This document shows, piece by piece, positions 15,786-48,300 of a stretch of 64,000 bases of DNA. Position 1 is the first letter of the stretch. Every line of letters begins with the position of its first letter. The notes under the pieces are model-generated. The model was given only the letters and a program-made list of their open reading frames with translations. It made no database searches and was not told the DNA's origin. The translations under genes were made by a program, and so were the position numbers. The stretch is taken from positions 496,001 through 560,000 of the forward strand of contig JAFCMP010000543.1 of the NCBI GenBank assembly GCA_017506865.1. The letters are read 5' to 3'. The DNA is from Tribonema minus. Lineage: Eukaryota; Sar; Xanthophyceae; Tribonematales; Tribonemataceae.

Positions 15786-15904
15786 CAAATACCACTCAAG
15801 AAAAAAATCAATGCAAAAACAACAGGTTTGCGCCACGCATGCAAAACTCACGCCCAGTCGTCGGCTGGCCTGCTCGCTGCTGCCACGGCAGTTACTGCGC
15901 ACCC

Positions 15905-21900: not shown

Positions 21901-24900
21901 ATTGCATTAAGGGGTGGGCGCGCACAGCAACCCAAAAATGGAAATCTTCTCGAGTTTTGCCAATAGTTGATCAGTAACGGTAGTCTATGATAATAGCTCA
22001 TCAATAATAATAGCTCGTGTGCGCGGAAGGTCAGCTGCGACTTGGGAAAGAAAGGCCAATCTCTAGCATTGCATCACAGGGCAGGCGCACACAGCGACAG
22101 GAAAGTGAAGGTCCATCTCCAGCTTTGGCAGCAGCTCATCACGGCATGTGTGCGGGGGGCAGGCGCGTACAGCAATGACGAAAGTCAATTCGAGTTTTGG
22201 CGACAGCTCATCACAGGCTGTGTGTGCGGAAGATGAGCAGCTTGCGAACGCGCGCAGGAAAGCTGCTGTGCACAGACTAGTACAGTATTGCACTGTTGTG
22301 TGGTAATGATTACATGCCCCAATAGAGTCTAGCACTTGATACTGTAGTCGAAGTGCAGTTCTGTTTGCGAGCTGGTTGAGATCAGCTCCAGATGATTGTT
22401 GATGTAGGTGTCTCGGCAATCCTGAGCTGGCACACACAGGTTTGCTGTTGCTAGTAATAAAAGCTGCTGTGTGCAGACAAACAGTGCTCCGCGCACGAGC
22501 GCAGTAGTAGCCCGTGCACACTGCATGCCGTACATGCCACAACAAACTACGCACAGGGAGCGGGCGCCACACCGTCAGCTGAGTACTGGCATTTTATCTC
22601 GCAACATGACACCATAAACATCATCACCACAGTCATCTGCATCATAATTTGAGCCATACCCACAGTTTGATTGCAGACATCATGGATGCCATTCACACGT
22701 GTGACGCAGCACGCACTTTGTGATGAGCTTGAAGTTGCTCGCTTTCTTTGCCAGCAGCGGCACGACGCACTCCGCGTACGTCGTGGCGCGCCGCGCGCGC
22801 GGGCTGATGTTGAACGTGTTGGGCGCCATGCCAAAGCCGCCGCCGAGCTCACCGTCCGGCCCCTCGTTGGACGCTATGAAGGGCAGGTCCGCGCTGATCC
22901 ATGCCTGGGAGCGTCACAATGTGAATATTGAGAGTACAGGCTTTTGATTAAAAGTACAGGCGCACATGCAATGTGATGTACACATATGCGATGCGGATTT
23001 ATTTCTTGTGTTTGTTTCTCACGATTTGCGCAAACATGTATACAGCCTGCCACATTGTGTGCTTTTGTGGCAATCAGCGCAAATATGTTTTGGGCATCGT
23101 GCCAAAGCGGCTGCTCATCTGGCCTGTCGCTGCATGCCAGATGGGCCTGAACGGCGCCTGGGAGCGGCGTGATAAGCAGCGTGGAGCAGGAATTGCACGT
23201 GCATGTGCGCCGTGAAGTGCAGGTGTGAAGCAGCGGTTGTTGGCGAGAGCGATTGTGTCGGGCGCCATCCAAAATAAACTGCCAAGCTGCTCATCTGGCC
23301 TGTCTTTGGTGTGGCCGTAGTAGGGCTGGTCGGCGCTTTGCCACGCATAGCAACGGCATGGGCAGCAGTGCAGCGTCGCGCGAGAGTAAGCCGTGTGAAT
23401 CACGCGCTTGTCGACGACCGCGTTAATTGTTACAGCATGTCAGACGAACCAAGCAGTCGTTAGAAAATGAACAGGTACAGAGTGTGCACAAGGCGTACCG
23501 CGTACGTTGCCAACATGGATGTTTGTCCGGCAACGAGCGCGTCCGCAGCGCTGTGGCAGCGCGCACACGAGCAGACACGGTGCACGCATTGCACGCAAGT
23601 GGTTAGAGGTTACGCCCCATACGCAAGCAGACGTGGAGAAAGGACAAGTTCAATGGCCGCGGCGCACCTGCTGGAGCCAATCTTTCCAGCCAGGCTGACT
23701 GTACATGGGCGTCGATATTGGAATCGGGCCGTCCGTACCCCACGCATCATGCGCTGCGGACCTCAGAGATGGTATAGCGGTCTCCATGGCTTTGAACGCC
23801 TTCCACACGTGCTCTGGGCTCCATATGGCGGCATATGCCGGGCCGAATGAGGCCCACTTCCTGTAGTCCGCTTTCGCGCCCTGCACACGACATGTCATTG
23901 ACAGGCGAAATCATTTTTTCATGCCAGCTGAGGCGCTGCAATGCAGGTCGTTATGTACACTATAGTGGTATGAACGCGTATACGTGCGCGTACATACTTA
24001 CAACTGCAGTGCGCGCCTCGCTACAAACAACTCATCACACCATGTACAGCACTTGGTTGAAGCACATGCTTCAGCATGAGTACGCGTGCGCACGTACGGC
24101 TGCAGGTGCAGTCTGACCGCGCGCCATCACTCTATACTGCAGGTGCGCCGCGCGCACGTTTTCAATGAATGGTCAATAGTGCGCCACGTACACGGTGGTG
24201 CTGGGCGCCGTTGATGGCGCCGTTTCCGCCCGTGTGCCTGTCGAAGCGCAGCGGCGCGCCCCTGGTGTTGGTGAAACTTGCGACGGCAGATGCAGACTGC
24301 CCATGCGCCGTCGCTACATCACTACCCATGCATCATGATCATTCATCACTATAACCAATAGCGCGCAGACACCACACTGCAAACCACGTACCCGGTGGTA
24401 CTGCGCGCCGTTGATAGCGCCGTTTCCGCCCGTGTGCTTGGCGAAGCGCAGCGGCGCGCCCCTGACGTTGGTGAAGCCCCAGTCCAGCGCGCAGCCGGCG
24501 GCGCCCGTGGGGCAGACGTTGCGCACCAGACCGGGAGTGTTGATGGCCTGTATGATCCGCTGCGGCACGGCGGCGCTGGCGACGTCTGTGCGCGGCCCGC
24601 CCTCTAGCAGCAGCACGGAGTACTTTTGCGGCGCAGTGGCCAGTTTTTGGGCCAGGATAGAGCCCGCCGTGCCGGCGCCAACGACGACGAAGTCATATGC
24701 TGCCGGAGCTGCACGGGGCATGGGAGGGCGCCACAGAAATTAACAACTGTGAGGTACGAGGTGGAAGCTCGCATGCTGTCGAAGGGCACAATGCAGAGAC
24801 GGCATCAGAAATGTTAAGTCATGTGAGGAGGTCGCATGCTGTAAAGGGCAGAAATGTTAAGTCATGTGAGGAGGTCGCGTGCTGTAAAGGGGCACAATGC

Positions 24901-25285
24901 AGAGACAACATCAGCAATGTCAACTTGTGTGAGGTACGAGTTGGCAGCTTGCATGCTGCAAAGGGGTACAATGCAGAGACAACCTTTCAGTTTTGAACCA
25001 TTGACGCCAGGAAACGAACACTGCTGCAACTGCAAACTACGCCTGCACGAATAGCATCTGTGTGCAAACCTTGTTTTACCGCTTTTGTGCATTTAAAGCA
25101 TTGCATACTGCGTAAAGTATGTTCACATGGGCGAGACGGAAATGTAGTACAGAGGATTCCTCACCTAGTTGACGTTCCTGCTGGGCCTGCACAGAGAGCT
25201 CTGCCGCATCTGTCACGCGTGGAAGCAGCGTGGTGACTGCCGCTGCTGTGACAGCTGCGATGAAGCATTTGCAACACTTCAGCAT
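15905..25285 (-). CDS. GMC-family FAD-dependent oxidoreductase, secreted or organellar
   Basis: Ten minus-strand exons close in phase to 609 aa: 25285-25165, 24708-24392, 23880-23668, 22904-22717, 21894-21732, 21071-20877, 20224-20135, 19251-19024, 17802-17611, 16027-15905. GMC enzymes (choline dehydrogenase/glucose oxidase family) oxidise alcohols with FAD. Exon 1 encodes an apparent signal peptide (MLKCCKCFIAAVTAAAVTTL). Next come the FAD dinucleotide fold (YDFVVVGAGTAG, residues 45-56), GMC signature 1 (GGNGAINGAQYHR) and signature 2 (AGAIMSP...LLKSGVGP, split across an intron). At the C-terminus SHAFGSCALG supplies the usual first catalytic His (H549). The second catalytic position (normally Asn or His after DASVMP) aligns by eye with Arg586, so activity may be altered. 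The substrate is unknown. Introns are full of degenerate exon copies. Confidence 0.85.
16040..16800 (-). repeat. Tandem array of exon-10 acceptor copies in the GMC intron
   Basis: About five degenerate units of ~130 bp fill the last GMC intron next to exon 10 (16027-15905). Each holds a version of the exon start (plus-strand CACTCTGACGTTGGCCTGC; copies near 16175, 16295, 16450, 16580 and 16712), followed by GCCAAACTGGCAAGCA and GTGCAGGGGC-type words. Divergence is high, and no unit keeps the whole exon frame. The array appears to have grown by duplicating the 3' splice-site region. Confidence 0.75.
18390..19590 (-). repeat. Exon-8 echoes on both sides of the exon (GMC gene)
   Basis: Exon 8 (19251-19024) is flanked on both sides by decayed copies of its own ends. 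Copies of its 3' half plus donor lie near 18800-18870, 18600-18670 and 18395-18450; in the minus frame these read KPRIAF and EADKRVLYQ variants. Copies of its 5' half lie near 19355-19435 (reads PDGPNIDITFRPWRRPE, almost unchanged) and 19540-19585. Periods are roughly 170-210 bp. The copies carry stops or frame breaks outside the conserved core. Confidence 0.75.
19588..19610 (+). repeat. Interstitial telomere-type repeat (TTAGGG)
   Basis: Four consecutive TTAGGG units lie within the GMC intron, directly after a degenerate copy of exon 8. TTAGGG is a common eukaryotic telomere unit. Weaker isolated matches occur near 18165-18190, 30195-30215, 34950 and 46285-46330. A healed double-strand break or telomerase capture is a possible source; chance growth of a short repeat is another. 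Confidence 0.8.
21624..21717. repeat. Near-perfect 47-bp tandem duplication at a GMC donor site
   Basis: Two adjacent 47-bp units begin CTGTCACACGATGC and end CATGATCCATGTTCTGC. The next bases (CGGTCACACGCAC) resemble the unit start and contain the exon-5 5' splice site. The high identity means this is one of the youngest of the intron duplications. Confidence 0.9.
21905..22245. repeat. Degenerate ~85-bp tandem repeat in the GMC intron
   Basis: Three or more diverged units share GGGCAGGCGC(A/G)CACAGC, GGAAAGT and CAGCTCATCAC words (near 21910, 22078 and 22157, with a last partial unit near 22200). They sit next to the exon-5 acceptor (21894) and include flanking sequence of that splice site. 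Confidence 0.55.
23080..23345 (-). repeat. Two degenerate copies of GMC exon 4 start
   Basis: Near 23085-23165 and 23255-23345 the minus strand reads weak versions of exon 4 (22904-22717). In the second copy, SADQPYYG, PDEQLG and FWMAPDTI correspond to SADLPFI, PDGELG and FGMAPNTF of the real exon. Both copies lie in the intron upstream of exon 4, so they are acceptor-side echoes. Confidence 0.65.
24170..24300 (-). repeat. Copy of the GMC exon-2 3' end with its splice region
   Basis: The minus strand reads FTNTRGAPLRFDRHTGGNGA followed by INGAQHHR, close to the end of exon 2 (24392 side). It is followed by a similar donor region (GTGTACGTGG). The copy lies downstream of exon 2 in the intron. 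It could be used as an alternative partial exon, but upstream of the match the frame degrades. Confidence 0.75.
24749..24990. repeat. Degenerate tandem repeat in GMC intron 1
   Basis: About four units of 50-75 bp share GTGAGGTACGAG, GCATGCTG(T/C)AAAGGG and ACAATGCAGAGAC words. The array sits just upstream of the exon-2 acceptor (24709) within the intron between the signal-peptide exon and the FAD-fold exon. Confidence 0.7.
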
Positions 25286-27252: not shown

Positions 27253-28879
27253 TTAGTAGCCGCTGCTGAAGGAGCTGCCGCCGACGCCGCTGAAGCTGCC
27301 GAATCCGCCCCAGGGGTAGCCGCCGTAGCCGCCGTAGCCGCCGAAGCCGCCGTACCAGGGGAACCCGCCGAAGCCTGCAGCACGCAAACCATGCAAACAG
27401 AGAGGATTTATCATTTCGTTTTTGATGCGCCTGCATCGTGATGGAGACTGAGGCACGCGATGAGGGAGTGCGGACCACGCGAGCAGAAAAGGTTTATCAA
27501 TTCGCTGTTGGTGCACGCGCATCGTGATGGGGACTGAGGCATGCAATGAGTGAGTGCGGTGAGTGAGTGCGGACCATGCAAGCAGTAAGGGTTTATCATC
27601 ACGCTGTTGATGCACCTGGTGGAGACTTGAGGCATACGACCAACGAATAAGCGCGCTAGTTCGAACTACTTCGTGCTTGCGCAAGTGAAGCCCGTCTCAA
27701 GAGCGGTAAACACAAAGCGCAGCAACAGTTTGAGCGCTGAGCACTGCAGCACCGGATCGCTGCTGCATGGCGGGACGCCAGCAGCAGCGGCGCCGCCGGG
27801 CCGCGATCGGTGCAACACTGTATGCAAGTCAGCGTCATGAATGCAAGAAGGTACTGTCGTGTGACAGTGGCTCATGATTGAGGACTGAGCCAGGATCAGT
27901 ATCACATGCCTGACCAGTATTGCCGCCCAAAATGCCTGTTGCTCTTGAAACCATACATCAACATTCAGGTATGAACACACCTCAAAGCCAAATATGATCT
28001 TACTGACAGAAATCAAGCAAGGGCTTAAATCCTACTTGCCTTCACAATGTCTAAGCAGGCTCGATTGCCAGTGCTCTGCATCTCTCAACCCGAATACCTC
28101 TGAACTTCAATTACATGCCGCAGGCGTCAAGGGCGAACAGCTGCATGCTTGAGCTCAGAGCGTGCATGAAGCAGACAGTATAGCACGGCGTGACAAGTTT
28201 CAGCAGTATATGAGCAAACTCGGGGAGCCAGGCGCAGCTGTGGACGCTCACCTCCGTAGAAGGGGAACCCGAAGCCGGCTGCGGCGCAGATGGCAACAGC
28301 ATGCGAAAGGAGGGGGGCAGATGGAAACAGCATGCGACAGGGGGGGTCAGACACGATTACAAGCAAAGCGTAGCGGACAAGTGAGACGCTTTCACGCTTA
28401 CAGTTCTCTCGTTTCAATGCTTCACCGCGTGTACTCTTGTGAAAACGTGCCATGGCAGTGCAGTGTACAAGCACACAGCCCAATTGATTCCAGCCACCTA
28501 CGTGTCAAACCAAGCCTCAGCAAGCAAACTATCGCGTGTGAATTCCAAGTAGCAATTGAGTGCATACAGCGCCAGATGCGTTGCGCCTGAAGATTAAAAG
28601 CTACTATATACCACACTGACCAAAGCAAAAATACTTACAGCTGAAGGAGCTGCCGCTGCTGCTGCTGCTGCTGCCGCTGGAGGAGCTGCTGCCGTGGTGC
28701 TTCCTGTGGTGGGGGCGGTGGTGCTTGTGGTGGTGGCCGCTGCTGCTGCTGCTGCTGCTGCCGCTGTTCAGCTCCCTCTTCTCAACATCGCCCCTGAGGT
28801 TGGCGTGGGTCTCGGAGGCGCTGCCCAGGAGGGCGAGACACGCAGCCACGATCAGAGCGAGGACGGCCGAGATCTTCAT
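27253..28879 (-). CDS. Secreted Ser/His-rich and Gly/Tyr-rich protein (member B)
   Basis: Exons 28879-28639, 28278-28252 and 27374-27253 join in phase (both introns phase 1) to 129 aa. Exon 1 encodes a signal peptide (MKISAVLALIVAACLALLGS), a short charged pro-region containing NLRGDVEKREL, and a Ser/Gly block around His/Lys clusters (HHHKHHRPHHRKHH). Exon 2 is only 27 nt and yields a Gly/Phe/Tyr peptide (GFGFPFYG). Exon 3 is Gly/Tyr/Phe/Trp-rich (GFPWYGG, then repeated GGYGGYGG) and ends SFSSGY. The gene has the same three-part layout as member A and near-identical leader and pro-region to member C. Small tandem repeats abut the acceptors of exons 2 and 3. The role is unknown; composition suggests an extracellular structural, adhesive or metal-binding protein. 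Confidence 0.75.
27385..27640. repeat. ~95-bp tandem repeat beside gene B exon 3
   Basis: Three units share GACCA(C/T)GC(G/A)AGCAG, GGTTTATCA and GCATCGTGATGG(A/G)GACTGAGGCA. They lie in intron 2 of gene B immediately upstream of the exon-3 acceptor. A second, 32-bp duplication (GATGGCAACAGCATGCGA-type) at about 28285-28345 abuts the exon-2 acceptor. Confidence 0.8.
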
Positions 28880-30369: not shown

Positions 30370-33300
30370 ATGGCCATCACGCTGCTGTTCGTGCGGCTGC
30401 GCTCCGCGACGCTGGGGCGGCGGAAGCGGAGGGGGTCGGGGGCGGGGGCGGGGGCGGGGGCGGGGCGCGTGGGGGGGATGCGGCGCTCGCTGTCGTACCT
30501 GCGCTCGCGCAACAACTCCGCGAACCAGCTGGCGCGGAGCGCGCCCGGCAGCCCGGGCCTGCCGCGCGTGCCATCGCAGGTGAGTGGGGACTGTTGAGCG
30601 CTGCGCAGTGTGCAGTGGTAGGTAGGGTAGGAGGCCCGTGGAGAGTCACCTGGCCTGCCACGCGTGCCATCGCAGGTGGGTGGGGACCGCTGTGCGCTGC
30701 GTAGTGTGTGCAGTGATAGGTAGGTAAAGGGGTCCGTGGAGAGTCACCTGGCTTGCCGCGCGTGCCATCTCAGGTGAGCGGGGACCGTTCAGCGCTGCGC
30801 TGTGTGCCCGGCCCGATTTTGACGAGCCAGGCGCTACTAGTAGTGTTGATGCTGTTGGCGCCTTGCTGTGTGCGCGCGTGTGTGTATGTGTGTGTGTTGA
30901 ATGTGGTCGAGCGAGTGAGTGAGTGAGTGAGTGAGCACGGCCCAGCCTCACCGCTCAGTGCTGCGGATGTGCAACACCTTGGCAGCGCATGGGAGGACAT
31001 TTCAAATTTGGTACAGAGTGTGACTCGTACGTTCATGCTGCCCACACTATGTGTCAACGACATAGCATGTATGTAGCTATCGGGCTGCTGAATGCGTCCG
31101 TGGGCATCACTGATCAAATGCAATAGTTCAGGGCCGTCAGGCGCTGCCGCCCCCCCCCTCTCCCCAGTGTCAATGTGGACAGATGACTCTTGCATCGCTG
31201 AATGTTGACGCTGATGCATGTACTTCCCCCCCTTCCGCACGCACGTACACACATAATGAAAACAGGGGAGCCAGCTCGGAACTCTTGCCGGCAAGCCTCT
31301 GGCAAAGCAGAGCCGGCGATTGGGGCACTGGACGATGAACAGGAAGCTGGTGCTGGTGATGGTGGGGCTGCCGGCGCGTGGCAAGAGCTACATTGTCAAG
31401 ATGCTCATACGCTACCTGAGCTGGATAGGTAAGCGCTGCTGTCACCTTGCAGTTGACGCACCTACTGCAACATGAACTACTGTGAGGCCGCCGGCCGGGT
31501 GTAAGAGCTGCATTGTCAAGATGCTCATACGCTACCTGAGCTGGACAGGTGAGCGCTGCTGACGCTATGCGCATGGGCGGACGATGCACCTACTTCAGCA
31601 TGAGGTACTGCACTGGCGCTAGATGGACACATTGACAACTTTCCAAGAATAACACCGTTGACACGTGCGCGTTTGAACACCAATCTGTTGCAGTACGGGT
31701 AGTCACGAAGCACGTGGTGACTGCTGAAGGGAGCGAGCGCAGCGGTTGCCACGCTGCACGCAGTGACGCACCCGCTTCAAGTTGAAGAAGTGCATGGTCA
31801 GCACACATTGCTGTTTGACTGCCGTCTCCTAGAGTGCATGTGCCTATCTGATGCAACGTGCTTCGGCGTTACGGTAGTGGCAGTGACTGCCAGGGCATGC
31901 ACGATGCAGGTACGTTCAGTCAAAGTTTTCAGCGCAGCACCTTCAGGCGGATGGATAGGTTGGCGCAAAGGCACAGCCAGCAAGTACCCTTTACTGCTGA
32001 GTCCATGAGTTTGCAGCATCACATACGCCATACAACGTCAGCAGTGAGCTCTTTGAAGTTGACTAAACAGGTTGAAAACTCCGCAAGCGCTGTATGTAGA
32101 GTTCTGCAGAAGATCGTCTTCTCGTGGCGGCACCAACTACTTTGTACAGCATAGTTAAGAAAGTGAATGCTGACTTGCTCATCTCAGCCAGTGAAAGCCA
32201 GCTGCTGACCGTAAACTTCAGCTGCTTCTCCTATCTCTCTGGTCTATTTGAAACGCACTTTCTCAGCAGTAGCGGCGCGGTGCATGTGACGATATGGTGA
32301 TGCTCAGGCGGATACCTGTGTCATTGCGTGGGCATGGGATGTACATCATGACGGGATGACGTCTCAGCCGACGCACAAGTCATTGTTCAAGCAATGCGTA
32401 ATGCAGATGGTGAGTGGCGGCGATACTTGTGTGTGTCATTGCTCAGGCAATGCGTCAGTGTGCGAGATGCACAAGCAGTCCTCACAGTACCACAGAAGCT
32501 GAAAATGGCATGAACGTACATGAATGTTCACATTACCTGTGGCATCGTACTCCACTGTACCGGGAAGCGGCTTCGCCAACAGACGAAATCGCCGATCTGT
32601 GCTCATTTACGCACCAAGCTGTTGCAGCGCCAGTCGCTGTGCAGCTTTTGCATGGTGACAGCTGACAGCCGATGGCACAATTGTGATGATATGTACAGCA
32701 GTACAGTAGCCATCCACTCGCTCCGCTGTTCGCATCATCGTGAGCCACTGCCCTACGCTCGACTCTTGTGCTCGCCGCAACGCGCTGTGCGTAGGCTCCA
32801 CGCTGTGGGCTATGGGTGTCGTCTTGTGACTACAAGCATAGGTTAACCGTATAGAAGTATAGCATAGAAACCAAGGGTGCGCACACTGAGACTGGCATTC
32901 TATGTGGCCATCAGCAACGTCAAACCATCGCAAAAAGCATGATGCTTAGGCTGAAACCATGACATTGAGACAGCATCCTCTGTGTCAGGTCTGAGCCACA
33001 TACCTGCAGGCATCGGCGCTTCACCATCAGACAAACCTTTCCCTGTTGAATTGCACGGAGCGGCATGGCCCACTTGAGGCATGCTGAACACTTATCAACC
33101 GTTTATCATGGCTACGGCTAGTTCTGCGCCATCCCCTGCTCACCATCCATGAGCCTGGTTAACTTCAACTGCAAACTGCAATCTACCGCGATGAACCACC
33201 GCAGGGTTCCCGACCAAAGTGTTCAACATCGGCGACTACCGGCGGAAGCTGGGGTTCGCCGGCGTCGACAAGTCCTTCTTCGAGCCCTGCAACAAGGAGG

Positions 33301-36300
33301 GCATGCGCATACGCGAGAACATGGTCGAGGTCGTGCAGGACGAGATGTACACGTGGCTGCAGGCGGACGACGAGGCCAAGGTGAAAGCTGAATTTGAAGT
33401 TGAAGTTGACAATTGCATTTGATTTGAAGTTGAAGTTGTCAGGTACTAGATGTACACATGGCTGCAGGCGGATGACGAGGCGAAGGTGAAGTTGAAGTTG
33501 CCAGGTACCAGATGACACATGGCAGGCGGATGATGGGGCCAAGGTGAAGTTTAAGTTTACAGTTACTTCAAAGTTGAAGTTGCCAGCGATGTGCCTGACG
33601 GGTGCGCTGGAGTGGCGCAGGGAGTATCTGGCAGTCGTGTGTGTGCTTGGCTTCTGCTGCACATACTCAGGCAGGAAGCGGGAGCGTAGTTGCGCCACCG
33701 CTACGCCGCGGTCGCTACATCGTGGACCACGGTTCGGAAACTGACTGCACTTTGCACCGCAACGCACTTGCACCTGCGAGCGCTGTGACATAATCTGTCG
33801 ATACTCGGCGCGATCAATACCACAAAGGCGCGACTATGCGGCAGCGTCTCGCGGCAACGCTCAAACTGCTTTCTGCCTGCAGGTGCTGGTGACACCTAGG
33901 TGGCGATATCCCCCTCGCTCAGTGCTCCACCACTGTCACTCCGGGTGCTGTCGCGCGCAGGTGGCGATATTCGACGCGTACAACACCACCAAGGCGCGGC
34001 GCCACCAAGGCGCGGCGCCGCGTGCTGACGCAGCGCGCCGCAGTGCTCAAACATGCTTGCAGTCCAGGTGGTGATGTCCCCACGTGCTCAGTGCTCCGCT
34101 GAACTGTAAACACCTCCGGGTGCTGTCGCACGCAGGTGGCGATATTCGACGCGACCAACACCACCAAAGCTGCCAACTTGTACTCACATGGAGGGTTGCC
34201 ACAGGCGTCGAGTGATGTGAGGGTTTTGCCTCTTGTGTGCCTTTGAGAACCCAACAACGTCCCTAAATTCCATCTCCGGGTGCATCTGAATGCAGGTGGC
34301 GATATTTGACGCGACCAATACCACCAAGGCGCGGCGCCGCCTGCTGACGCAGCGCGCCGCGGAGGAGAAGAACACGCTCCTCGTCTTCATAGAGTCCATC
34401 TGCGACGACCCGGAGATCCTGGCGCAGAACTACAAGTTGAAGTTGCAGAACGACGACTACCGCAACCAGGACCCGGCGCAGGCGCTGGCGGTGAGGCTTC
34501 TTTCTCATCGTTGCAACTACGTTGGAAACAGTGCTTGAAAACAAGCGAGTTGGCAGGGCACTGAGGCTTCTTTCTCATCTTGCAACTACTTGAAAACAGT
34601 GCTTGGAAGCAAGAGTGTTATTCAGCGCACTGTGGCAAGAGCGTCACCGGGGATGCTACAATGGAGTCATACATGCATACATACCCTATCAGCCGGCACA
34701 GGCGCTCGGCCACCGGCGGTGATGGGGCACCGGCTCGCGCTAGCCCGCAACGATGAGCTCACTTTGTTGTTATCACAGACGCATCTGATAATCCTGCTGC
34801 GAGAAGCGGTAGCTGGGCTTGCAGAATGAAGACCGCCTACCAGCATGCGATAATTGTGCTAGAAACGTAGATGTGGCCCGCCACCGTTCTGTGTGCTTGG
34901 GGCGTGCGCCCCCCGCTCTGATGATCTGCACGCGATGCTCTCTTATCAAGGTTAGGGCTAGATTAGGGCTAGCCCTGCCCGCACGCGCTGTCGAGGAGCC
35001 GCGCACACGCCTTGCACATCCAATATTTTCTGGCCGTGCCAGACGGTCACGTGCCAGACGGTCAGAGCTGTTGTGCGCGGCGACGACCGCGCGTGCCAGC
35101 ATCGCAGACTGCGCCGTCAGGATTGCCGTGCTGACGACTGGAGTCGCGCGCCGCGCTTGGTGGCCACCGCGTGTAGCTCCGATCAGCTGCGCCGCACGCA
35201 CGCGCTCGCCGTGCGGGCAGTGCGCTCATCATGTTTGCTTCGCTGAGTCTCAGTCAGAGTCCGAGGCGTGCGCGACAGCGTCGCCGGCAGCCGCAACCGT
35301 AACACACGCAGAACTCTAGATTACGTTCCATGATCCTTACCGCATGATTGCGTCATGTTTCGGGGTTGGCCGTTGCAGGACTTCAAGGACCGCGTGCACG
35401 CGTACGAGCTCGTGTATGAGACGATCGAGGACAACGAGGACTCAAACAACATCCAGTACATCAAGCTGTACAACGTCGGGCAGAAGGTGGTCACGCGCAA
35501 CTGCAAGGGCTACCTGCCCAGCCAGGTGGCCTTCTACCTGCAGAACATACACATCGGGCCGCGAAAGGTGAGGGCGACGCACCGCGCGCTTATTAACGAC
35601 GATTGATTCATGTTAGCCTAGCATTGTTGCTTTTGCAGCACACATTTGGCAGAGCTGTTGTGCCAAGGTATACGTAGGTGTGTTTTCGCCTTAAAGTTGA
35701 TACGTTCATGCACGTGATATTTTAACTTACATTCCCATGCAGACGGCAAGGGGGTGCCTGCTGTGACAGGCCAGATGCAGCCTGATCTGGCTCACGCAGT
35801 CCACTGTGCCATCTGGCTCGCGCAGTATCCACTGCGCCGTAGCCACATCATCACGCACTTCTTTGGTCGGGATCAGCGGCACGGTACGGCACTTGCTGCC
35901 CTGTAACCGTTGACGGAGCCCGCCATGTGACGCTCCGCCAGCGCATTGATACATACCCATTGTGACTGCCGGTAACCGCCCCCTTGTGTCCCCCCCCCCC
36001 CCCACGTCCCCCCCCGTGCACAGATCTGGCTCACGCGTCATGCAGAGAGCGTGAGCCACGTGATTGGCGAAATCGGCGAGGACACCGGTGAACTCACCGA
36101 GGGCGGGCGGCTGTACTCCATGACGCTCGCCAAGTTCATCAAGATGGAGCAGGAGGTGTGCGACAAAGATGATGCCCTCGTGATGCGCAATTAGAAGCGT
36201 GGAACACTTGAAGTTCGGTTTAGTGCAGACAGCACTGGCGACAAAACGAATGCTCCTTGAGCGTCAAATCTCTCAACGAGTGCTTATTTGGAGTACACCG

Positions 36301-39300
36301 CTTGACTTTTCATTCAGTGCTGGTTGGTGAATTGAAGCATGCCCCTCGAGGAGCAGTCTTCAGGTCATTATCCCCTTCCCTAGTGCTGGCTTGCGTCGAT
36401 ACGTCAGGATGGCTGCGGAGCAGAGCAGTGGCGCTCGCTGGGCAAGGCCAGCGCTGGCTTCAAGCAAATCGCGGCGCCCCTGTTGTCATCTTGATGACAC
36501 GGGCTCGGCATTCCCGCATGGTCTGCTCGACGGCGCACACGCGTTCTTGTGGTGAAGCCCCCGCGCGTTTTCAACTTGAAGAAATGGTCGCTACATGCGG
36601 GCCGCCTCGCGTCTACGTCGCGCCGCGTGTCGCGCCCACGCCGGTGCGCGTGTTGCGCTGAAGGGCGCCGAGGCGTCGCGCTCCCACTGGCGGCGCGAGC
36701 GCAGTCTGCGCTATTCCCTACGCCGCGCCGGGACATGGGTGCAGGTGCCGCATTGCCGCCTTTGTGTGACGACAGAGTGACGCATTGCCGCTTGTGTGTG
36801 GTGACAGGGCGACCTGGACGTTCCGTTGACATTGCGTTCACGTCAGATGTTCTCATGTACGTCACATGGCATGATACCATATGTCTTATGTCATCACATG
36901 TTTTGCGTGCTCCCGCGCAGAACATACACATCACCGGGCCGGGGCGCGAGATACTGGTGCTGGCGGGCACGCAGACGGTGGACAGGTGATTGATCCTTCA
37001 TTTTCATGAACACGTCTTCATGCATGAATTTCAACCATATGTGGCCAGGAGTTCACGGGGAGGTCTGGCCTTGGGTAGAGGTGATGGTGCAGCTGGATTT
37101 AAGCCTGCGTGTCTGCTGTGGTCGTCCGCATGCAATGGCTGTCCTAGTGGATGGACAGATTGCGCGCGGTTGCCAGCTGCGTCCACTCACTATCTGAAGC
37201 CAATTTTGAATTCAACGCTGGTGTTTCCGTCATGTATGGACTGAGTCATTAATCGTACCTCGAGTCACCTGAGTACAAAGGCTTTTTAGATGGGCCAGTT
37301 TGACTTGAAGTAGTCCTACTTCAGAACCGCAATTTGCTCAGATTGTGCCTTTGTTGTGAAAAGCGCTGCGTCGCTGCTGCGTCGCCACTGCCACTTCCAC
37401 AACTCAAGCCAATTTCACAATCGACCTTTACATTGTATTTGTTTACATGAACATGAAGTACCTTGACGCAAGCACTATCGCGCCCGTTCAGTTCTACGTA
37501 CTTGAGAATTGCCAGTTGGCAATCGTTGTGTACATGTAGTGAACACCTCTGAGCTGCTCCCATACGATGCGGCAAGAGCGCCGCGCACCTGCAGGAGCTG
37601 TTCGAAAAGCGGGATTTTTCAACGACACTAGCAATGTGACAATGCAGAAGTGCGCTTCCACCCGCCGGCCTCCACCTCGTACAGCGCACCTACAGATAGC
37701 TGTACAGCTTGAATTCTTCAACCGCGCTCGAAGCCCCTCCCCCCCCCCTCTTCGCTTGACGCAGCGAGAGCATAGCACACCTGCAGATGCTGTACCGCTG
37801 CAATCTGGACTTTGATTGCACTTGGAGGCGCACCTAAAGCCCCCCCCCCCCCCCCCCCCCCCTTGATGCAGCGAGAGCATAGCGCACCTGCAGATGCTGT
37901 ACCCCGTGGCCACCACGCCGCTGCTCAACGAGCTGCGCGGCGGCAGCTTCACCGGCATGACGCGCGCCGACTTCAAGGAGCGGTACCCAGATATTCACGC
38001 CCAGGTGCGCAAGTGTGGTAATCTACGCATGTGTGAGGCGTGCTTGTGAAGCATCAAAACGATTGGTGTTTTGTCTCGTTTACTTCAAGAAGAGAAAGTA
38101 CGCGTTGTCACATTGAGAGGCAGCTTCACCGGCATGACGCGCGCCGACTTCAAGGAGCGGCACCCAGACATCCACGCGCAGGTACGCACACAAGTCATCT
38201 GAAGTCAAATGGAGAACCCGGTATTGGCAGAAGTTTTCGGAATTTGCCGTGTCTTCCATCGGCGAGCACTGGCGCAGCGGCGGCTTCGCCGTCATGACAC
38301 GGGTCGACTTCCATGAGCACTACCCTGGTATTACCCCCAGGTGCACATAGGCCTGACAGTAGTGCTGTGTAGCACCAAGATGTGCAACGTGCCCAAAGCA
38401 ATATCTTCATTCGAGAAGGCTGCTGTGTGTGTTGAGCGCTGTCACGGCGGCAGCTGCACCGGCAGGGCGCGTACGCACTTCCAGCACCGACGCCCCGGCA
38501 TTGGCGCCCACGTATGATAGACACGCACGCTCTCTGTACCCCAGGTGCGCACACACACTCTTTGGAGTAGTGGAGTAGTATTTGCTGTGACAGCGAGCGC
38601 CGTCACAGGCGCAGCTTCGCTGGCACGATGCGGCCGATTGCTGTGTACTACACTTCAACTTTGACTTCAACACTCAACGGAGCGCATCTGAGAGATGCTC
38701 GCTGCTGCCCGCGCGCAGTACACTCTCCCGCAACGATGCCCTCCCCTCCCCCCCTCCCCCCATCCCCACCGCTTTCCTGCCCACATGTGTCCGCATACTG
38801 AGGGAAGGGCGCGCGCATGACGTACTTCAAGGAAGTGAGCTGCTGCTTGCTGCTTACTGTTGCCCGCTTTGCTCACACCCGTTCTGGACGCCATGAAAGG
38901 CAGCCTGAGCAAAGAGTGTGCGCATAACGTACTTGACGTAAGTGACTGTTACTTGCTGCTCGCTGCTGCGCGCACACGCAGCGCGAAGCCGACAAGCTGG
39001 ACTTCCGCTTTCCGGGAGAGGGCGGCGAGAGCTACATGGACGTCATCCAGCGCGTGCGGCCCATCATCGTCGAGCTGGAGCGGCAACCGCGGAGGTACAA
39101 TGAACATACATTTTGTATACATCATTTTTTATGTGAATGAGTTGTTGCTATAATATCATTACACGCACCTACATGGACGTCATCCAGCGCGTGCGGCCGA
39201 TCATCGTTGAGCTGGAACGCCATCCACGCACGTGAAGTGAACATACATGCGTACGAGGTATACGTCCATGAACTGTTGCTATAGCTGGTGAATACGTACT

Positions 39301-42151
39301 TACATGGACATCATCCATTGCGTGCGGCCAATCATCGTCGAGCTGGAACGCCAGCTGAGAAGGTGACCTGAACATGTTTAGTGTATACTTTGCAGTATAG
39401 CAGTATGTACATGAACTGTTGCTGTAGTTGTTTATACATACCTACATGGACATCATCCATCGCGTGCGGCCTATCATCGTCGTGCTAAAACGGCTGTCAC
39501 AAAGGAAAGATGACTTTACATATGGTTTTTGAAGTGTATCTTTTGGCGTAGTTCATAGTATACACCCATAATCACCCAGTTCATTGCTTCACTCAGATAT
39601 GACGAGTCTCCATGAACATCATTCAACGCATGCGGCCGCTTGTCGTTCAGCCGGAGCGTTAGCCACGAAGACAAAAATGAATGCTTTCTCACTTTCAAGT
39701 ACTGCGAAGTACTGAATAGTATATGGTCGGTGTCCCCTGGGCACTGGACTTGCCTGTTTTGAAGCTCTGGCAGCGCTTGCGCGGTTCTGCACAGATGAAT
39801 CGCGCGGCTGTAGAGCGACAGCCGCACACAGTAATCAATTCATGAATCCGTGTGCCTTTATGACATGCGCGCGCGTGAATGTGTGCCCCACCATCGCGTA
39901 AACTTTGGAATGCCACAAACCCCGTGCGGCCAGTCATCGTCGTGCTGGTGCGACTGCCGCGCTGCTTGAACTCCTGCCTGCTCCGCGGCAGAGTCACAGC
40001 ATATGTGGCCATTTATACATAGTGACGGTCGCTGGCACGACGTCTGCGCTGCTCAAACTCTGGCTCGCATCACAGCAGGGCTGCAACCCTCTTCCTGTCT
40101 TTTGTTTGTTTCTGAGTCCAGCACAGAGAGGCCCTTGCGCAGTCTCACACGCGACCGCTGTTATTGCTGTCCCTATGCAGTCTGGTCGTGGTGTGCCACT
40201 TGGCTGTGCAGCGCTGCCTATACGCCTACTTCATGGGCATTCCCATCAAGGTATGTACTGCGCATTTCTCTTGTTTTGAAGTTTATGTTGAAGCTTTTCA
40301 TAGGCCATGCCAAGAGGTGTGTGCTCTGAACCTCAGTCAGGACTCTGGCTCTGACTTGTTCAACAAGAGAGGCTGCTGTAGAACTCATATGCGACAAGTG
40401 TTGCGGGTGATTGATAGTGCAAGTACTGCCATTGGGCACATGCAGCGCAGTTAGCATGCAGCACTGGTATGCAGCAGGGGAAGGCACGGTTCACGTCCAG
40501 GACGGATCAAGAACGGTTCACGGTTCAGAATCAGAACCGAACCGAACTGATCCGTTGTCTGCGTGATCCGATCTGAACCGAACCGTCGTCGAACACTGTG
40601 TGAGTTGATCTGATCCGTGTTTCGTCTCGCTGCTCCGTCAAGCGGAGCCAAGTTGAGTTGATCTTGTGAGGGGCGGGGAACCGCTAGTTTTCAGGGTTGT
40701 ATGTGTGTATTTGATTGCGCACAAAGCCAGTGAATCACTACACTGTCCGGAGATGGCTGACACAGAGGCTGGTGCTGTAGGTCCCGCGGCGACAGGGCTC
40801 TTTAAGTGTCCAACGATGAGTCAGCTCCTATGATCAATAGTGGCGGCTCAGACACGCAACGCGCTGGCACGCTGCAATTACGGGAGGCAGTGCCTGCTCG
40901 AAAAGGCAAGACGCAGGAGCGGCCGCACCAGCCTGCGCGGTTTCTCATTCCACCAAAAAAAAAAGTACTCATGTCTCAACTTCGACTTTGATGTTGCAAC
41001 CAACTTTAAAAATACATGCACAAATATGCACTTCCTGAAGACTTGGTACAAAGGTGCATGCGCTGGCGGAACTATTGCTAAAGTAGTTAAGAAACACACT
41101 TGAGTTGAACCGTACTTGAACCGAACCGTGAACCATCGGGGTAAGTTGATTTGAACCGTGATGCCGCCTGAGTTGCATTAGAACCGAACCGTGAATCTGG
41201 GGGCTGAGCTGTGAACCGAACCGATCCGAAAGGCGGTCTTGGCCCCATGAACCGATTTGATCCACATCCAAAATCATGAACTGTGCTGTCCCCTGGCATG
41301 CAGTCACGTCACCTCATAGTTGCCTTGTCGTTCGCACAGCTGTAGAATAGAGTTCGGTGCAAGTACAACACAGGCGGACATCCGTAACTGGGGTTCGGTG
41401 CCGGCACCAAGTAGCACATACGGTTTGGCGGTAACTGTATTGCGTCACACACTTAATAAAACAGCGCCACTGCTGACTTGTCAGGCAGTGCGTGCAACAC
41501 ATGAGCATTGCGTCAGTCGAGCGATGGGCTTGTTCGCTCTTGCGCTCGGCACAGCTGGGCGCCTATCAGAGCGGTAGCAGAAATGGGCATCTGTGCTGCG
41601 CTGTCCCTGCGGCACACTTCCAGTTCTTCGTTGTAACGTGCGTTGACTGCGTGTGCTAGGCAGCCAAGGCTCGCTTGCGCCTGCTCTCCTGCTGGATCGC
41701 CCTTTTCTTTGAGTGATACTTCTAGAAGTATGCCGCATGAGCTGTCAGAGCGAAGAGCTGCTGAAGTTGCCCATGCCTGTGGCGCTCCCTCTACTCAGAA
41801 AAGCAGCACTTCCTAGACTTCCAAGTGCTGTACTTGCATTTCATCCGCTTCGTGTTCCAGAAGCAGCAGATATGCTGTGCACCGCGTTTTTATTATGCGT
41901 CACCCGGCGTACTCGTTCCACAACAGAAACCAACTTGTTGATGTGACGGACATGGCTCGACTGAGCACAGATGCCAGCAGACGATTCAACGCCAAACTCT
42001 CTGTGACCATATTTGGCGCCGCTGCCTCCCGGTTGCGCAGGAAGTACCCTACATCGACCTGCCGCAGCACACGGTCACGGAACTGGTGCCCACGCCCTTC
42101 GGCACGAACGCACGACACATATCGGAGGCGGAAATGCAGGACTGCTTCTGA
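30370..42151 (+). CDS. 6-phosphofructo-2-kinase / fructose-2,6-bisphosphatase
   Basis: Eleven exons close in phase to 503 aa: 30370-30579, 31311-31428, 33205-33380, 34296-34490, 35379-35567, 36024-36155, 36921-36985, 37872-38004, 38982-39094, 40181-40250, 42041-42151. The cytosolic enzyme makes and breaks fructose-2,6-bisphosphate, the signal balancing glycolysis and gluconeogenesis. The kinase half has the P-loop GLPARGKS (residues 89-96), PTKVFNIGDYRR and VAIFDATNTT (169-178). The phosphatase half has LTRHAES (His302; the usual RHG is RHA here), LLNEL (Glu382) and VVVCHLAVQRC (His450), so both catalytic His and the acid are present. The Ser/Arg-rich N-terminus (RRSLSYLRSR) could be a phosphorylation site. 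The start could also be the Met at 30478. Introns hold many degenerate exon copies and one inverted-repeat element. Confidence 0.9.
30558..30795 (+). repeat. Three tandem copies of the exon-1 donor junction (PFK-2)
   Basis: The end of exon 1 (CTGCCGCGCGTGCCATCGCAG) followed by a 5' splice site occurs three times at about 97-bp spacing. The junctions fall at 30579/30580 (GTGAGT), 30675/30676 (GTGGGT) and 30773/30774 (GTGAGC). All three could act as donors if the upstream copies were read through. The spacers between them are also similar (GGTAGGTA..., GTGGAGAGTCACCTGGC). Confidence 0.9.
31495..31560 (+). repeat. Copy of the PFK-2 exon-2 3' end
   Basis: About 115 bp after exon 2, a near-exact copy of its last ~45 nt (AAGAGCT(G/A)CATTGTCAAG to CTGAGCTGGA) recurs. 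It is followed by AGGTGAGCGCTGCT, again a plausible donor. The P-loop is not included. Confidence 0.9.
33440..33560 (+). repeat. Two copies of the PFK-2 exon-3 3' end
   Basis: The exon-3 end (TGTACACGTGGCTGCAGGCG, GACGAGGCCAAGGTGAA) recurs at about 33449-33492 and, more decayed, at 33513-33550. TTGAAGTTGAAGTTG stretches separate the copies. Each copy still ends in (C/G)AAGGTGAA, a donor-like junction. Confidence 0.85.
33890..34330 (+). repeat. Three copies of the PFK-2 exon-4 acceptor junction
   Basis: The start of exon 4 with its acceptor (GCAG then GTGGCGATATT(C/T)GACGCG) occurs near 33958, 34134 and 34293; only the last continues into the full exon. The upstream intron sequence (CTCCGGGTGCTGTCGC(G/A)CGCAG) is duplicated too. 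The first copy has an internal 16-bp duplication and ends in a stop after ~38 codons; the second loses similarity after about 13 codons. Confidence 0.9.
35740..35835 (+). repeat. Degenerate copies of the PFK-2 exon-6 start
   Basis: GATCTGGCTCACGCAG and CATCTGGCTCGCGCAG near 35777 and 35808 echo the start of exon 6 (CAG|ATCTGGCTCACGCGTCATGC at 36024). The matches are short but occur twice at 31-bp spacing in the intron just upstream. Confidence 0.55.
37565..38640 (+). repeat. Echo copies around PFK-2 exon 8
   Basis: Upstream of exon 8 (37872-38004) the acceptor and first codons (GCAGCGAGAGCATAGC(G/A)CACCTGCAGATGCTGTA in two parts) recur at 37756-37800, with weaker copies near 37670 and 37570, each preceded by a C run. 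Downstream, the exon end (GGCAGCTTCACCGGCATGAC, GACTTCAAGGAGCGG) recurs at 38118-38185 almost unchanged, then more decayed near 38270-38342, 38440-38515 and 38600-38640, with a period of about 150-170 bp. The copies closest to the exon are the best preserved. Confidence 0.85.
37840..37862 (+). repeat. Poly-C polypyrimidine tract (23 nt)
   Basis: A run of 23 C followed by TTGATGCAG, the acceptor of PFK-2 exon 8. It occupies the position of the polypyrimidine tract and is unusually pure C. Confidence 0.9.
39095..39945 (+). repeat. Five decaying copies of the PFK-2 exon-9 end
   Basis: The exon-9 end (CTACATGGACGTCATCCAGC, GTGCGGCC, ATCATCGT, GAGCTGGA) recurs at about 39172-39232, 39302-39366, 39443-39495, 39611-39660 and 39920-39945. 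Spacing is roughly 135 bp at first. Similarity falls with distance from the exon. The intervening AACATACAT...GTATAC...TGAACTGTTGCTATAG is duplicated as well. The first copies keep most of the peptide (YMDVIQRVRPIIVELER), which might be included by missplicing. Confidence 0.9.
40474..41297. mobile_element. Non-autonomous inverted-repeat element with GAACCG motifs
   Basis: Located in the last PFK-2 intron. The ends form an imperfect terminal inverted repeat of about 40-45 bp. The left end reads CAGGGGAAGGCACGGTTCAC...GGATCAAGAACGGTTCACGG; the right end, reverse complemented, reads CAGGGGACAGCACAGTTCAT...GGATCAAATCGGTTCATGG (two motifs in each). Many GAACCGAACCG and GATCCG words cluster near both ends and are absent from the AT-richer centre. 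No coding capacity is visible. It resembles a MITE of a cut-and-paste DNA transposon; superfamily and target duplication could not be assigned. Confidence 0.7.
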
Positions 42152-44026: not shown

Positions 44027-45365
44027 CTGCGGCAGCAGCAGCGCAGCAGCGTGATGAGCCCATGTTGAAGTGAATCCAGAACCTAATAGTAATCAAGTGA
44101 TTAAAAATGGAACACCCCATGGATTTATAGCTTCAATACCTACAGGCGGCCAAACTCCTCCAATTGAAAAAACAGGAGAAAGACTTGAATGAAAAAACGC
44201 CCAGAAAAAGCAAAATCAAAGGAGAGGGTCATCAGTGCTCTGCCAGAATGCGAGTCGCCAGCGCGACGAGGTCAGATTGTAGCAGTCAGAACCTGAAAGG
44301 AAGCCCTCAGGGCGGGGATTGAAGCATGTGTGCAACATAAGCAATTCCATTGCCTTGAAGAAGAGTACGCTACCTCTAGCACTTCACGTGCGAAAAAATG
44401 CGGGACGCGCTCTGAACACGCCGCCAGCTGCCAAAGACAGCGTGCTCTCCAACGAGATTGTGTCATTGCGCACTTGGCAGTGCCCTCCTTGTACCTGCCA
44501 AGGTACACATGCTTGATGCCACTCAGGTGGATATTGAGTATTCCGTGTTGAGCTGCATCAGAAATGACTGTGCAAACCGACCCCCGAGCATCATGAGGTT
44601 GGGTAAGTGTGGGTTGAAAGTGCCTAGCGCAAATCTTGCTGCTAACATCACGGGCTGAGAGTTTGGTGTATTTGCTGCTCGGGTAAAATCAAGGGTATAC
44701 ACACAAGTACTTCTTGTTGATTTCATCGACGGCGAGAGAGCGCGTATGAGCTGCACAGCCAAGCTGAGCACACAAGTACTTGTTGTTCATTAAATCAAGG
44801 GTGCAAGAGAGCTAAGATCATCTGCGCAAAAACTGCTGCAGAGTGTCAATGTCTTGCTGCGAAGGTGCACAATGCTCAAGCACGAGTAAATTGCCATAAG
44901 TCTAGTACGTCTCATGCTGCTCTACATCATAATTGACTGCACATAAGACTGAACCCCAAGCGTTTCCATACAGCCGAGCAGGCATGGGGGGGGGGGGGGG
45001 GGGGGGGTATCGGGTATATCTGGCTCAAGTGCCCAGTGCAGCCTTTTCGATAACTCTCCCTGGCACCATGGGCCAGGCTTAGTGTGTATTTGCTGCTTGA
45101 ATTAATACTGGGGTACGCGCACAAGACTTCTTGTTGATATTTGTCAAGGGGCGCACGAGAGCCCATATGATCTGAGCAACACCTGCTGCAGGTATCCATG
45201 TCTTGTCGCTAAGGTTCATGGTGCTCACACGCGCTGAGTGAGTTTGCCATGGTGGAGAGCGTCTCGAGTGCTTCATCCGTTGACTCTTTCTGACAACAGT
45301 ATCGACGTACTTCGCAGTATCTGATGCATTAGAAAGGCATGTGAGTTCACATGCCCTTCTTTGGT
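44027..45365. other. Region between the acidic exon and bL25, nothing recognised
   Basis: If 43971-44026 is a real exon, its upstream exons should lie here on the minus strand, but no recognisable one was found. Loosely repeated words (CACACAAGTACTTSTTGTTGAT, GGTATACACACAAG-type) occur near 44690-44800 and 45065-45140. A run of 22 G is at 44986-45007. Confidence 0.35.
44986..45007. repeat. Poly-G tract (22 nt)
   Basis: A run of 22 G, that is C on the minus strand, downstream of the bL25 stop codon (45366). Confidence 0.9.
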
Positions 45366-48300
45366 TTATTCTGATTCTGCGCTGGAGAGTAATTGACTCT
45401 TCTCAGTACGGTCTGCAGTGAGCAGGGCCTCACCTCTGACTGTCCCCATGCTCCAGCCGATCTTGAACGGCTGTTCGGGCCTGAAAAGTTGCACGCCCGG
45501 CGGCAGCACGAGGTATTTGGCGTCAATCTTGTCGCCGGCCTTGACGCCCGTCAGATCCACCTATAAACGAAGCAAAAAATATATACTATTATAAGTATAC
45601 GAGACCCAAAATATATTACTGGTGGAAGGCACTTGCGGCTGATCATCCCTTGTCACCTAGAGCTCTACAATCTTTTGATTCGTTTTCATATATGATGCTT
45701 CAAAGTACTTGCACGGAAAGTGCAAGAAATACTTCTACACAGACATGTACACGAAAGTCCAAAATATGAATGACACTTCAAAGTACGTGCTTGTAAAAAC
45801 GTTTGTGGCGGCCGCATCAGTCAAGGCCCACATGGGCAATTGAATATTCCCATCTACAAACTGAAAAGTATGAATGAGTCTGATGCAACTGTCCTCCGCC
45901 GTGCTGAACATTGAAAAGCTTCCAACACAGCCCCTCGCGAACCATCAGGATCTCTCTGAGCGACTCGCATCGACTGCCTGTCTTGTATAGGCCCTTTGAA
46001 CATGCTGTGAAATTCAAGGCGCGCTTCACATTATTGTGGCCTGTGTACCAGCAGTGTAACTGCCGTAACCGCCAGGCGCGCAACCGGCAACGAGCATGCA
46101 ACTGCCATGTTCTCCAACAGAAGTCAAGGCGCGCTTCACAGCGCGAGCGCACGCAGACCGCGCACGCGCATCCAGCGCACATGACGACGCTGTCATTCAT
46201 CAATCACACCTGAGAGGGACTTGAAGGTGTGCCCTGTGCGCTGGTCGGACGCACAGCACCCTGTGCGGTCAGTGCCGCTTAGGATTAAGATTCAGGGTTG
46301 GCTGAGGAGCGTTGGCAATGCTAACCCTAATCAAAGACGCATGCGACATCTTCAACTCGGCCTACTTGCCGAGTGCTCGTTGTGATCAGATAATCCACAC
46401 AAGCCGCAACCGCGTCACCTCCGCTGCGTTTTTGTTCGTTTAATGAAATACCTAACTTATCAAAGGTACGTTGTAATTCGGGAACCGCGTCACCTCCGCT
46501 GCGTGACAAACTAATTTCTCAGCATGTGTGATGCGCTGCCCTCATCAGCAGCATCAACATGACATTGCTGTGCCAGCTGATACAAAGGACTTCACAGCGT
46601 TCACTGCAGTACGATGCTGTACTCCCACATTTGAATCCTGTACAAAACCTGCACTCACGTCGATGTATTTTGGTATGGATGCTGGGTCCATGGATGAAAT
46701 CTGCGGCACACAGGGAGCGAAAGGGCACGCAGCATCGCAACGAACATGCAGGTCAGTCAGAATCAGAGTCTTGGTACGACAGAAAGAAATAACGGGACAT
46801 GTGGCACTGCCTTGGCGTCGAAAGGACAGCACGACCGACTGTCGCGAGCAGGTACCACTTTGTCAATGCTGATTTGCCATGGTGTTGCAGTATACAGGCA
46901 GCATGTCATGACGAAGCGCTGCGGACCGCGGCGCGGCTGCTGCTGCGCCGAAGCGACAGCAGCGTGTGCGCTCTCACCAAGATGTGGACGCTTCGGCATC
47001 GAAAGAACGGCGGGTCGATCGGCGCATGACGCGTGTGTACCGCGCGCAGTTTCTCAATGCTGATTTGTCATGGTGTTGCAATGCACGGGCAGCAAGCCAC
47101 GACGGAAGCAGCGCGCCGCCGCGGCGCTGCACTGCTGCGGCGTCGCACGGCCGCGCGCGCGCACTCACATGCTCATGCTGATTTGTCGAACAGTGTTGCA
47201 ACATACAGGCAGTCGTAGATGAAGAGCTGCGAACCGGAGCACTGCTGCTTTTGCGCCGCAACGACGGCAGTGCTCACCAGGATGTCGACGCGCCGCTCGA
47301 CCTTCTGAACCCACGCGCCACGCCGCATTGATAGCGACAGCTCCTCGTTGACTGCGCACGCAGTACACGGCGGCGCAGCGGAGTGCAGCGAGTTCAGCGA
47401 CGCAGTACACGGCAAGTACAGCAGCGCAGCGAGTACAGCGAGGCATGGACAGCGACAGCTCCTCATTACGTGCGCGGCGCGGCACGCGGCTGCGGCGGAG
47501 TACGGTGAGTTCAGCGACGCAGTACACGGCAAGTACAGCTGCGCAGCGAGTACAGCGGTCAGTCATTCACTGCACGGCGCGGCACGACGCAGCGGCGGCG
47601 GCAGATAACAGCAAGTTCAGTACATACTGCAGTACGGTTGAGTGCAGCACCCACTGCGGCACACTACAGAGCGCGCACAGCCGTGCAGCAAGACCAGCCG
47701 CGAGGCAGCGCACGAGCTGCGCCGCAATGCAGATCTGCAGCGCACGAGATGCGCCGCAATGCGGGTCTGCAGCGCCGCTGCCGTATCAGCTTCTGGCGCA
47801 ACAGCGGTGCTGGCGCAGGCTTTTGCAGCGCGTGTGCGCGTGAAAAACGCATGACACGCCACAACCTCTCAAGCGCGCAGTGAGCGCAGTGGCAGAAAGT
47901 CCCGGCTTGCAAGAGAGCAACGGCAAGAGGTCACGTATTTGTGGCAGCAGCTGGCAATGAGCCTCAGGATGCAACAGGGTCACCCCCATGAGAACAAAGC
48001 CTGGAGAAATGTTGAGCAACACACACTGCGGGCGGTGCGGGGTCTGAGCGCAGGTGGCAGCAAGTCTCTGGCAAATCGTATCAGCGAGCTCTTCCCTTCT
48101 CACCGTATCAAGTGCGCAATGCTGCGGGATTTGTTCTTGTACGTAGCGGCATGTAGTTGAAGTTGTATTTTAACGGTTTGAACTTGTGTCCGTCCTACAT
48201 ACCTAGGCGCATTGGCACGCTGAGTGGCCGCCCCACGCGGTAGCGTAGCCAGTTCACCGTCTGAAACCTGGCAGTGGACAGCGGCGCATGCGGGTGAGTC

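Follow-up and report, generated by a model that had tools for sequence, protein, structure and literature searches.

Across the 15 genes of Tribonema minus that we examined, 42 of 128 splice junctions carry copies of the adjacent exon edge in the neighbouring intron, amounting to 87 copies over 64 introns. These copies, hereafter echoes, occur at both types of junction (24 of 64 donors and 18 of 64 acceptors), are usually taken from the working exon edge, and point to serial local duplication from functional exon edges as a probable route of intron growth. The pattern appears to be a property of the genome, a view that rests on 15 genes from four protein families on many contigs. An earlier note on this DNA had described such repeats in a single gene and proposed looking for exon-derived repeats in the rest of the genome, where they are indeed present.

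The genes were drawn from a 158.18 Mb assembly and comprise two PFK-2, four complete CCT, two pieced-together CCT, three ATP-synthase-type and four kinesin genes. The ATP-synthase-type and kinesin genes were picked by family-match tiling before any repeat search, and the selection of the CCT genes followed an initial inspection for repeats, in which 30 loci, some of them overlapping in part, had given 122 direct local pairs and no inverted ones. In the full set of 15 genes, local repeat pairs numbered 159 direct and one inverted. Six genes form set 1, in which three introns were completed by hand, and nine further genes form set 2, in which 10 of 33 exon-to-exon steps were dropped (six for a gap or overlap in the family match, two with no solution and two for a poor score); one step with a missing exon was dropped in gene C5. 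Splice sites are predicted throughout, from homology and consensus. The main counts were redone with the final splice positions, which left the family counts unchanged, and the contiguity of close pairs, the identities of exon and intron parts, the coverage profile and the 100-nt windows described below used earlier positions for the acceptor of PFK-2 intron 7 and its counterpart on contig C115.

The gene that gave rise to the earlier note lies at 30370..42151 on the forward strand of the window (the 64,000-nucleotide stretch of DNA analysed as a whole) and encodes a bifunctional PFK-2/FBPase-2, according to domain matches to 6PF2K (E = 5.6e-72) and His_Phos_1 (E = 1e-19). Eleven exons were mapped with the aid of a paralog on C115, and the reading frame is open through all of them: exon 1 (30370..30579, with an open frame continuing in frame into exon 2, the ATG assumed and a donor GT at 30580), exon 2 (31266..31428), exon 3 (33205..33380), exon 4 (34296..34490), exon 5 (35379..35567), exon 6 (36024..36155), exon 7 (36921..36985), exon 8 (37872..38004, its acceptor position chosen to keep the frame open), exon 9 (38982..39094), exon 10 (40181..40250) and exon 11 (42041..42151, including the stop codon). 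These exons and all repeats listed for this gene are on the plus strand.

Self-comparison and a junction-by-junction search confirmed that extra copies of exon ends, together with their splice sites, lie in the PFK-2 introns. The 22 echo blocks include 19 strong, two borderline and one weak; rough E values, computed with assumed rather than fitted constants, are below 1e-4 for 19 blocks, between 1e-4 and 1e-3 for those starting at 37575 and 38611, and 1.2e-3 for the block of exon 6. The inventory of the earlier note largely held. Two extra copies follow the exon 1 donor, for which three copies had been claimed (30649..30675, 25 of 27 positions identical; 30747..30773, 24/27), and the expected donor echoes were found once for exon 2 (31482..31548, 60/66) and twice for exon 3 (33429..33485, 49/56; 33502..33543, 36/41). 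At the exon 4 acceptor, where three copies had been listed, we detected four blocks, two of which are neighbouring pieces of one copy (33796..33832, 31/37; adjoining pieces in 33961..34041, 37/41 and 39/40; 34136..34170, 32/35). Exon 8 has echoes on both sides, as described, one on each side being borderline: three at the acceptor (37575..37601, borderline, 22/27; 37683..37705, short, 21/22; 37765..37796, 31/32, part of a full repeat at 37734-37796) and four at the donor (38119..38181, 59/63; 38272..38340, 55/69; 38438..38510, 53/72; 38611..38637, 23/27, borderline and stopping 34 nt before the junction). The exon 9 donor, credited with six copies including the real one, is followed by five extra ones (39169..39228, 54/60; 39301..39353, 47/53; 39442..39494, 46/53; 39608..39658, 38/51; 39923..39961, 32/39). 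The weakest entry is the acceptor echo of exon 6, which is present as a match of only 13/13 nt (35785..35797). Self-comparison also recovered two intron-only repeats, a tandem pair with a 70 bp unit abutting the exon 4 donor (34492..34636) and a 107 bp pair just 5' of the exon 9 acceptor (38798..38973). Over the whole window, local repeats (≤1 kb) form 39 direct pairs and one inverted pair, and none occurred in one order-2 Markov resample.

Several other features of the window and of related loci were observed. A further multi-exon gene on the minus strand of the window (18379-19589 and 24184-24980) seems to carry exon-edge arrays, which lie to either side of a coding-like segment (19042-19248) and at one edge of 24398-24694. 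Local direct repeats with no clear coding segment lie at 15596-16746, 27388-27618, 44666-45227, 46856-47557 and 50666-50844; these may mark weak exons or true intergenic duplications, and the latter would count against exon specificity. A 1772-codon open frame on the minus strand (8817-14135; RVT_1, E = 2e-10) is likely a retrotransposon. Many local direct repeats are found in other PFK-2 loci, namely L017 (C24, 616001-626000), L015 (C79) and L016 (C190); L017 contains a pair of 1.6 kb repeats, one portion of which is matched in the opposite orientation too, and a few inverted matches occur in L016 and L017. A TTGAAG/CTTCAA-like motif recurs in introns of several genes (window 33385-33560, L062 introns, L073), sometimes as runs near splice sites. 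Light-harvesting gene pieces gave 92 matches in the assembly, which also has split genes with GT-AG introns, and a fragment of plastid psaA is present in the nuclear assembly (L072, 1501-1668, contig C168), where 11 psaA/psaB matches were counted genome-wide; together these features indicate a photosynthetic eukaryotic alga. For psaA the top matches were PDB 9ygv and 9m4f, and for the light-harvesting genes 9vfj, an entry mentioned in a Euglena paper (PMC12577709) whose score adds up several matches along a long chain.

Repeats in these genes are anchored on splice junctions. Among 49 placeable repeat families, 40 span a junction, against about eight expected when the same repeat envelopes are placed at random, and three are interior to an intron, against about 35 expected. 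The 33 families of set 1 include 20 that span a junction, six that abut one, one interior and six outside mapped introns; the null for the 27 placed families is 4.9 spanning, 3.0 abutting and 19.1 interior, and the largest spanning count in 2,000 nulls was 14. The 39 families of set 2 include 20 spanning, none abutting, two interior and 17 unplaced, 13 of which overlap a family-matched exon; the null for the 22 placed families is 3.6, 2.5 and 15.9, respectively, with a largest spanning count of 12. In a pairwise classification, an exon copy is part of 90 pairs and an echo is involved in 19; 16 pairs are intron-only and 34 unmapped. For pairs of at least 85% identity the corresponding numbers are 35, 3, 2 and 18. 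Family and pair classifications were made because cruder tests mixed arrays with intron interiors: a plain profile of coverage against distance failed to tell junctions and introns apart (p = 0.056), and interior 100-nt windows matched about as often as exon edges (41/136 versus 41/128 at score 30, and 23 versus 29 at score 54), since arrays reach deep into introns and were not removed. Gene ends were compared at five stop codons: the best score was between 14 and 18 at four of them, and the fifth, in C279a, reached an echo-like 35 with no splice site, which counts against the main reading, although five ends are too small a sample for judging plain coding ends.

Ordinary tandem duplication, striking anywhere at an equal rate, might leave a similar picture if junction echoes simply stay recognisable longer because their exon copy is conserved. 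This reading is consistent with the match rate of interior windows, with the 16 of 40 close pairs that are contiguous tandem units, and with the higher identity of exon parts than of intron parts (92.0% versus 85.7% in 34 echoes), which is expected if one copy is constrained. Intron copies of the same age should, however, be about 86% identical and thus visible, yet 38 of the 40 mapped pairs of at least 85% identity are exon-linked (a count that omits 18 unmapped pairs), so that easier detection of exon copies does not explain the anchoring. Echoes, which are nearly the same DNA, are moreover rarely duplicated themselves. The family, pair and star tests (the last described below) thus already disfavour random tandem duplication, and we consider it an unlikely explanation.

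The copied exon edge, as detected, is mostly 35-80 nt long, and the distance from one copy to the next is 82 to about 265 bp for 90% of steps (median 154). Repeated duplication across junctions, as the earlier note had proposed, is supported, whereas its description as tandem is only partly right. In the 40 close pairs of set 1, 16 are contiguous, eight intermediate, and 16 share less than half of the unit; some arrays consist of full tandem units, and others share the exon side plus only a few splice-site letters. The intron flank could be matched in 50 of 87 echoes and shows no detectable match in 37, which argues against pure tandem duplication; exact extension past the junction, made with a strict cut-off and earlier splice positions, exaggerates how frequently homology ends at that point. 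Among echoes of at least 94% identity that reach the junction, 16 of 21 have a matching flank and five do not, so that the mismatch is partly a matter of age and partly real.

One pair of paralogs illustrates how a flank may be replaced. Exon 2 is 97% identical between C146 and C101, yet C146 has three donor echoes and C101 none. Two of the C146 echoes carry the intron start of C101, whereas the C146 exon itself is followed by 94 bp of other DNA, a new flank that begins with GT, ends with AG and is bordered on either side by the exon edge. The same picture could arise if C101 were a collapsed array instead of the ancestral state. A flank of this form would also be expected from introner-like mobile elements, inserted with their splice sites beside exons and generating long target duplications. 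Introners are sequence families spread over many genes, and whole-assembly searches with two arrays and two spacers returned, outside their own loci, only a piece of the homologous C115 gene. The 94 bp C146 flank and the spacer after exon 8 of the window PFK-2 gene each occur once in the assembly; one array matches only itself, the other itself, its own exon and the C115 piece, and neither matches an unrelated gene. These searches largely refute the introner reading, and although remote families are possible, we regard such insertions as very improbable here.

The earlier note missed that copies usually originate at the exon edge. In the 19 arrays with at least two echoes, only four of 82 testable pairs consist of copies that have more in common with one another than with the exon, a star-like pattern indicating that the working edge, and not old copies, is usually duplicated. 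Simulations in which any unit could serve as source gave about 23% such pairs, and none of 200 runs was as low as observed; with approximate array sizes (62 simulated echoes versus 64 real ones), an exon-as-source probability of 0.7 to 0.9 fits, and a probability of 1.0 fits less well, so that some copies come from copies. The arrays are therefore not simple minisatellites, in which any unit is a template, the uniform-source simulation being rejected. Decay with distance from the exon, another claim of the earlier note, stood as a trend and not as a rule: of 18 untied arrays, 17 have a nearest copy that resembles the exon more than the farthest one does and one shows the opposite, with one further array tied (13 of 13 with earlier splice positions), but the nearest copy ranks first, alone or jointly, in no more than 12 of 19 arrays, so that strict ordering is absent.

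Gene conversion from exon to echo could mimic part of this star. In its full form, duplications would arise everywhere and those linked to exons would be refreshed by conversion from the selected exon, a process expected to yield both the star and an identity limited to the exon side, and one with which the 37 of 87 echoes lacking a matching intron flank are compatible. Conversion between echoes would, on the other hand, leave shared changes, and in multi-copy arrays only 14 of 141 changes outside codon position 3 are shared; echo lifetimes also look short, two of six comparable PFK-2 arrays having a counterpart in C115. Concerted evolution is accordingly an improbable account, and copying from the working edge remains our preferred reading. 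Because echoes differ little from the edge in their letters and splice sites, sequence alone fails to explain why they are rarely recopied. That a nearby echo with an intact site is seldom a source leads to a more tentative proposal, which we hold to be possible and rather doubtful: duplication may recognise a working splice junction and not a DNA sequence, mutation coupled to transcription or splicing (for example, through breaks at exon edges during splicing) building introns in this lineage.

Judged by their substitutions, echoes change as unconstrained DNA would, and the exon remains under constraint. Differences between the 87 echoes and their exons number 117/1524, 90/1518 and 215/1502 at codon positions 1, 2 and 3 (position-3 share 0.51), a pattern to be expected because a drifting copy is compared with an exon that changes mainly at silent sites. 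In the 19 multi-copy arrays, private changes are spread 65/62/83 over the codon positions and shared changes 10/4/26, the latter probably being mostly changes of the exon itself. Frameshifting gaps occur in 26 of 87 echoes and an in-frame stop in three. The copies are thus not mutually exclusive duplicated exons, as they are partial, often frameshifted and nearly even in their private changes.

Selection could instead keep junction duplications if spare splice sites aided splicing or gave useful isoforms, and GT or AG is indeed kept in 60 of the 73 echoes that reach the junction. This retention is, however, roughly the neutral expectation, and nothing in the sequences suggests selection of the sites for use; nor do the frameshifting gaps and the private changes fit such maintenance. 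Two candidate signals were rejected. Functional constraint on echoes, read from a first subset (25/486, 20/488 and 63/483; splice dinucleotide mismatches 2/89), was dropped when more genes and corrected frames fitted neutral copies, and an excess of in-frame spacing over all echoes (35, 20, 18) left no significant preference for multiples of three when only the nearest echo (p = 0.12) or the spacing from one echo to the next (p = 0.51) was considered. Maintenance by selection hence seems highly unlikely.

Intron growth is usually attributed to transposons and random insertions. In the 15 genes, exon-anchored repeats account for 11,848 of the 53,062 intron bases (11,892 of 53,106 with earlier positions) and further intron-only repeats cover 1,607, supporting the earlier suggestion that duplication across junctions lengthens introns. 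Median intron length is 915 with echoes (n = 31) and 569 without (n = 33; p = 0.0015), a difference to be read with the greater room that long introns offer. In several comparisons between paralogs, the intron that bears an array is the longer one. Four acceptor copies covering about 0.7 kb occur in the C516 CCT gene where no copies were found in its C511 paralog, and the same family-matched exon pair is about 2.4 kb apart in C516 and about 0.34 kb in C511. Of the six PFK-2 arrays comparable between the window and C115, only those of the exon 2 donor and exon 8 acceptor have a C115 counterpart; the arrays of the exon 3 donor and exon 4 acceptor (which share one intron), exon 8 donor and exon 9 donor are absent there, and the three introns concerned measure 915, 977 and 1086 in the window versus 643, 486 and 436 in C115. 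This link is tempered by array-free PFK-2 introns, which are mostly longer in the window gene too, and by a counterexample, the C115 exon 2 array being bigger, yet its intron shorter (1249 vs 1776).

Serial duplication from the exon edge would proceed as follows. An exon edge, its splice signal and a variable intron stretch would be copied repeatedly into the adjacent intron, mostly at a distance of 100-265 bp; the outermost copy would stay joined to the exon and functional, while the inner copy would become intron and decay neutrally. The next event would usually recopy the working edge, producing star-like copies that tend to be older with distance and an intron that lengthens. At the DNA level, the event would most likely be staggered-break repair in or at the exon edge with fill-in, sometimes with filler DNA, or copy-jumping at exon edges with fill-in. 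Survivors would be only those products that keep the outer splice site and frame, and copies wholly inside the exon would be purged by selection because they break the frame. Junction anchoring, the star pattern, neutral decay, the distance trend and the arrays of one paralog that are missing from another are direct observations, and the inner copies would presumably be spliced out. The preference for working edges may stem from exon-specific breakage or from coupling to splicing or transcription. Serial edge copying would leave in introns a roughly ordered, readable and datable record of their growth and would be a source of decoy splice sites, and it raises the question of whether mutation may be directed by splicing or by the chromatin of exons.

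The literature searched contained no account of a junction-anchored, exon-sourced series extending over many genes, which does not prove that none exists, and related processes are known. Introners and introner-like elements add introns on a genome scale, also in algae, including Aureococcus (PMC4457414; PMC9481584); the present arrays resemble them in adding intron sequence at scale and differ in that each of those searched is tied to its own exon. Rogers and Bendich (2025, PMC11782384) described direct repeats at intron borders and interpreted them as marks left by DNA breaks; their repeats are 4-30 bp long and shared between the two ends of one intron, whereas in T. minus a single exon edge, mostly of 35-80 nt, recurs once or several times on one side. 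Small tandem duplications can also be made by CST-guided Pol alpha-primase at broken ends (PMC8355091), a possible molecular cause of the events described here, with no tie to exon edges in the start of that abstract. Such a duplication, as a single event across a splice junction, is already known from the potato RdRp gene, in which one duplication across an intron-exon boundary created a new intron with a new mRNA junction and a second, 83 bp tandem duplication lies inside the first intron (PMC4974935). As in potato, the duplications in T. minus cross the junction and pass on real splice signals; unlike in potato, the copies lie inside existing introns, arise serially and are found at roughly one in three of the junctions studied.
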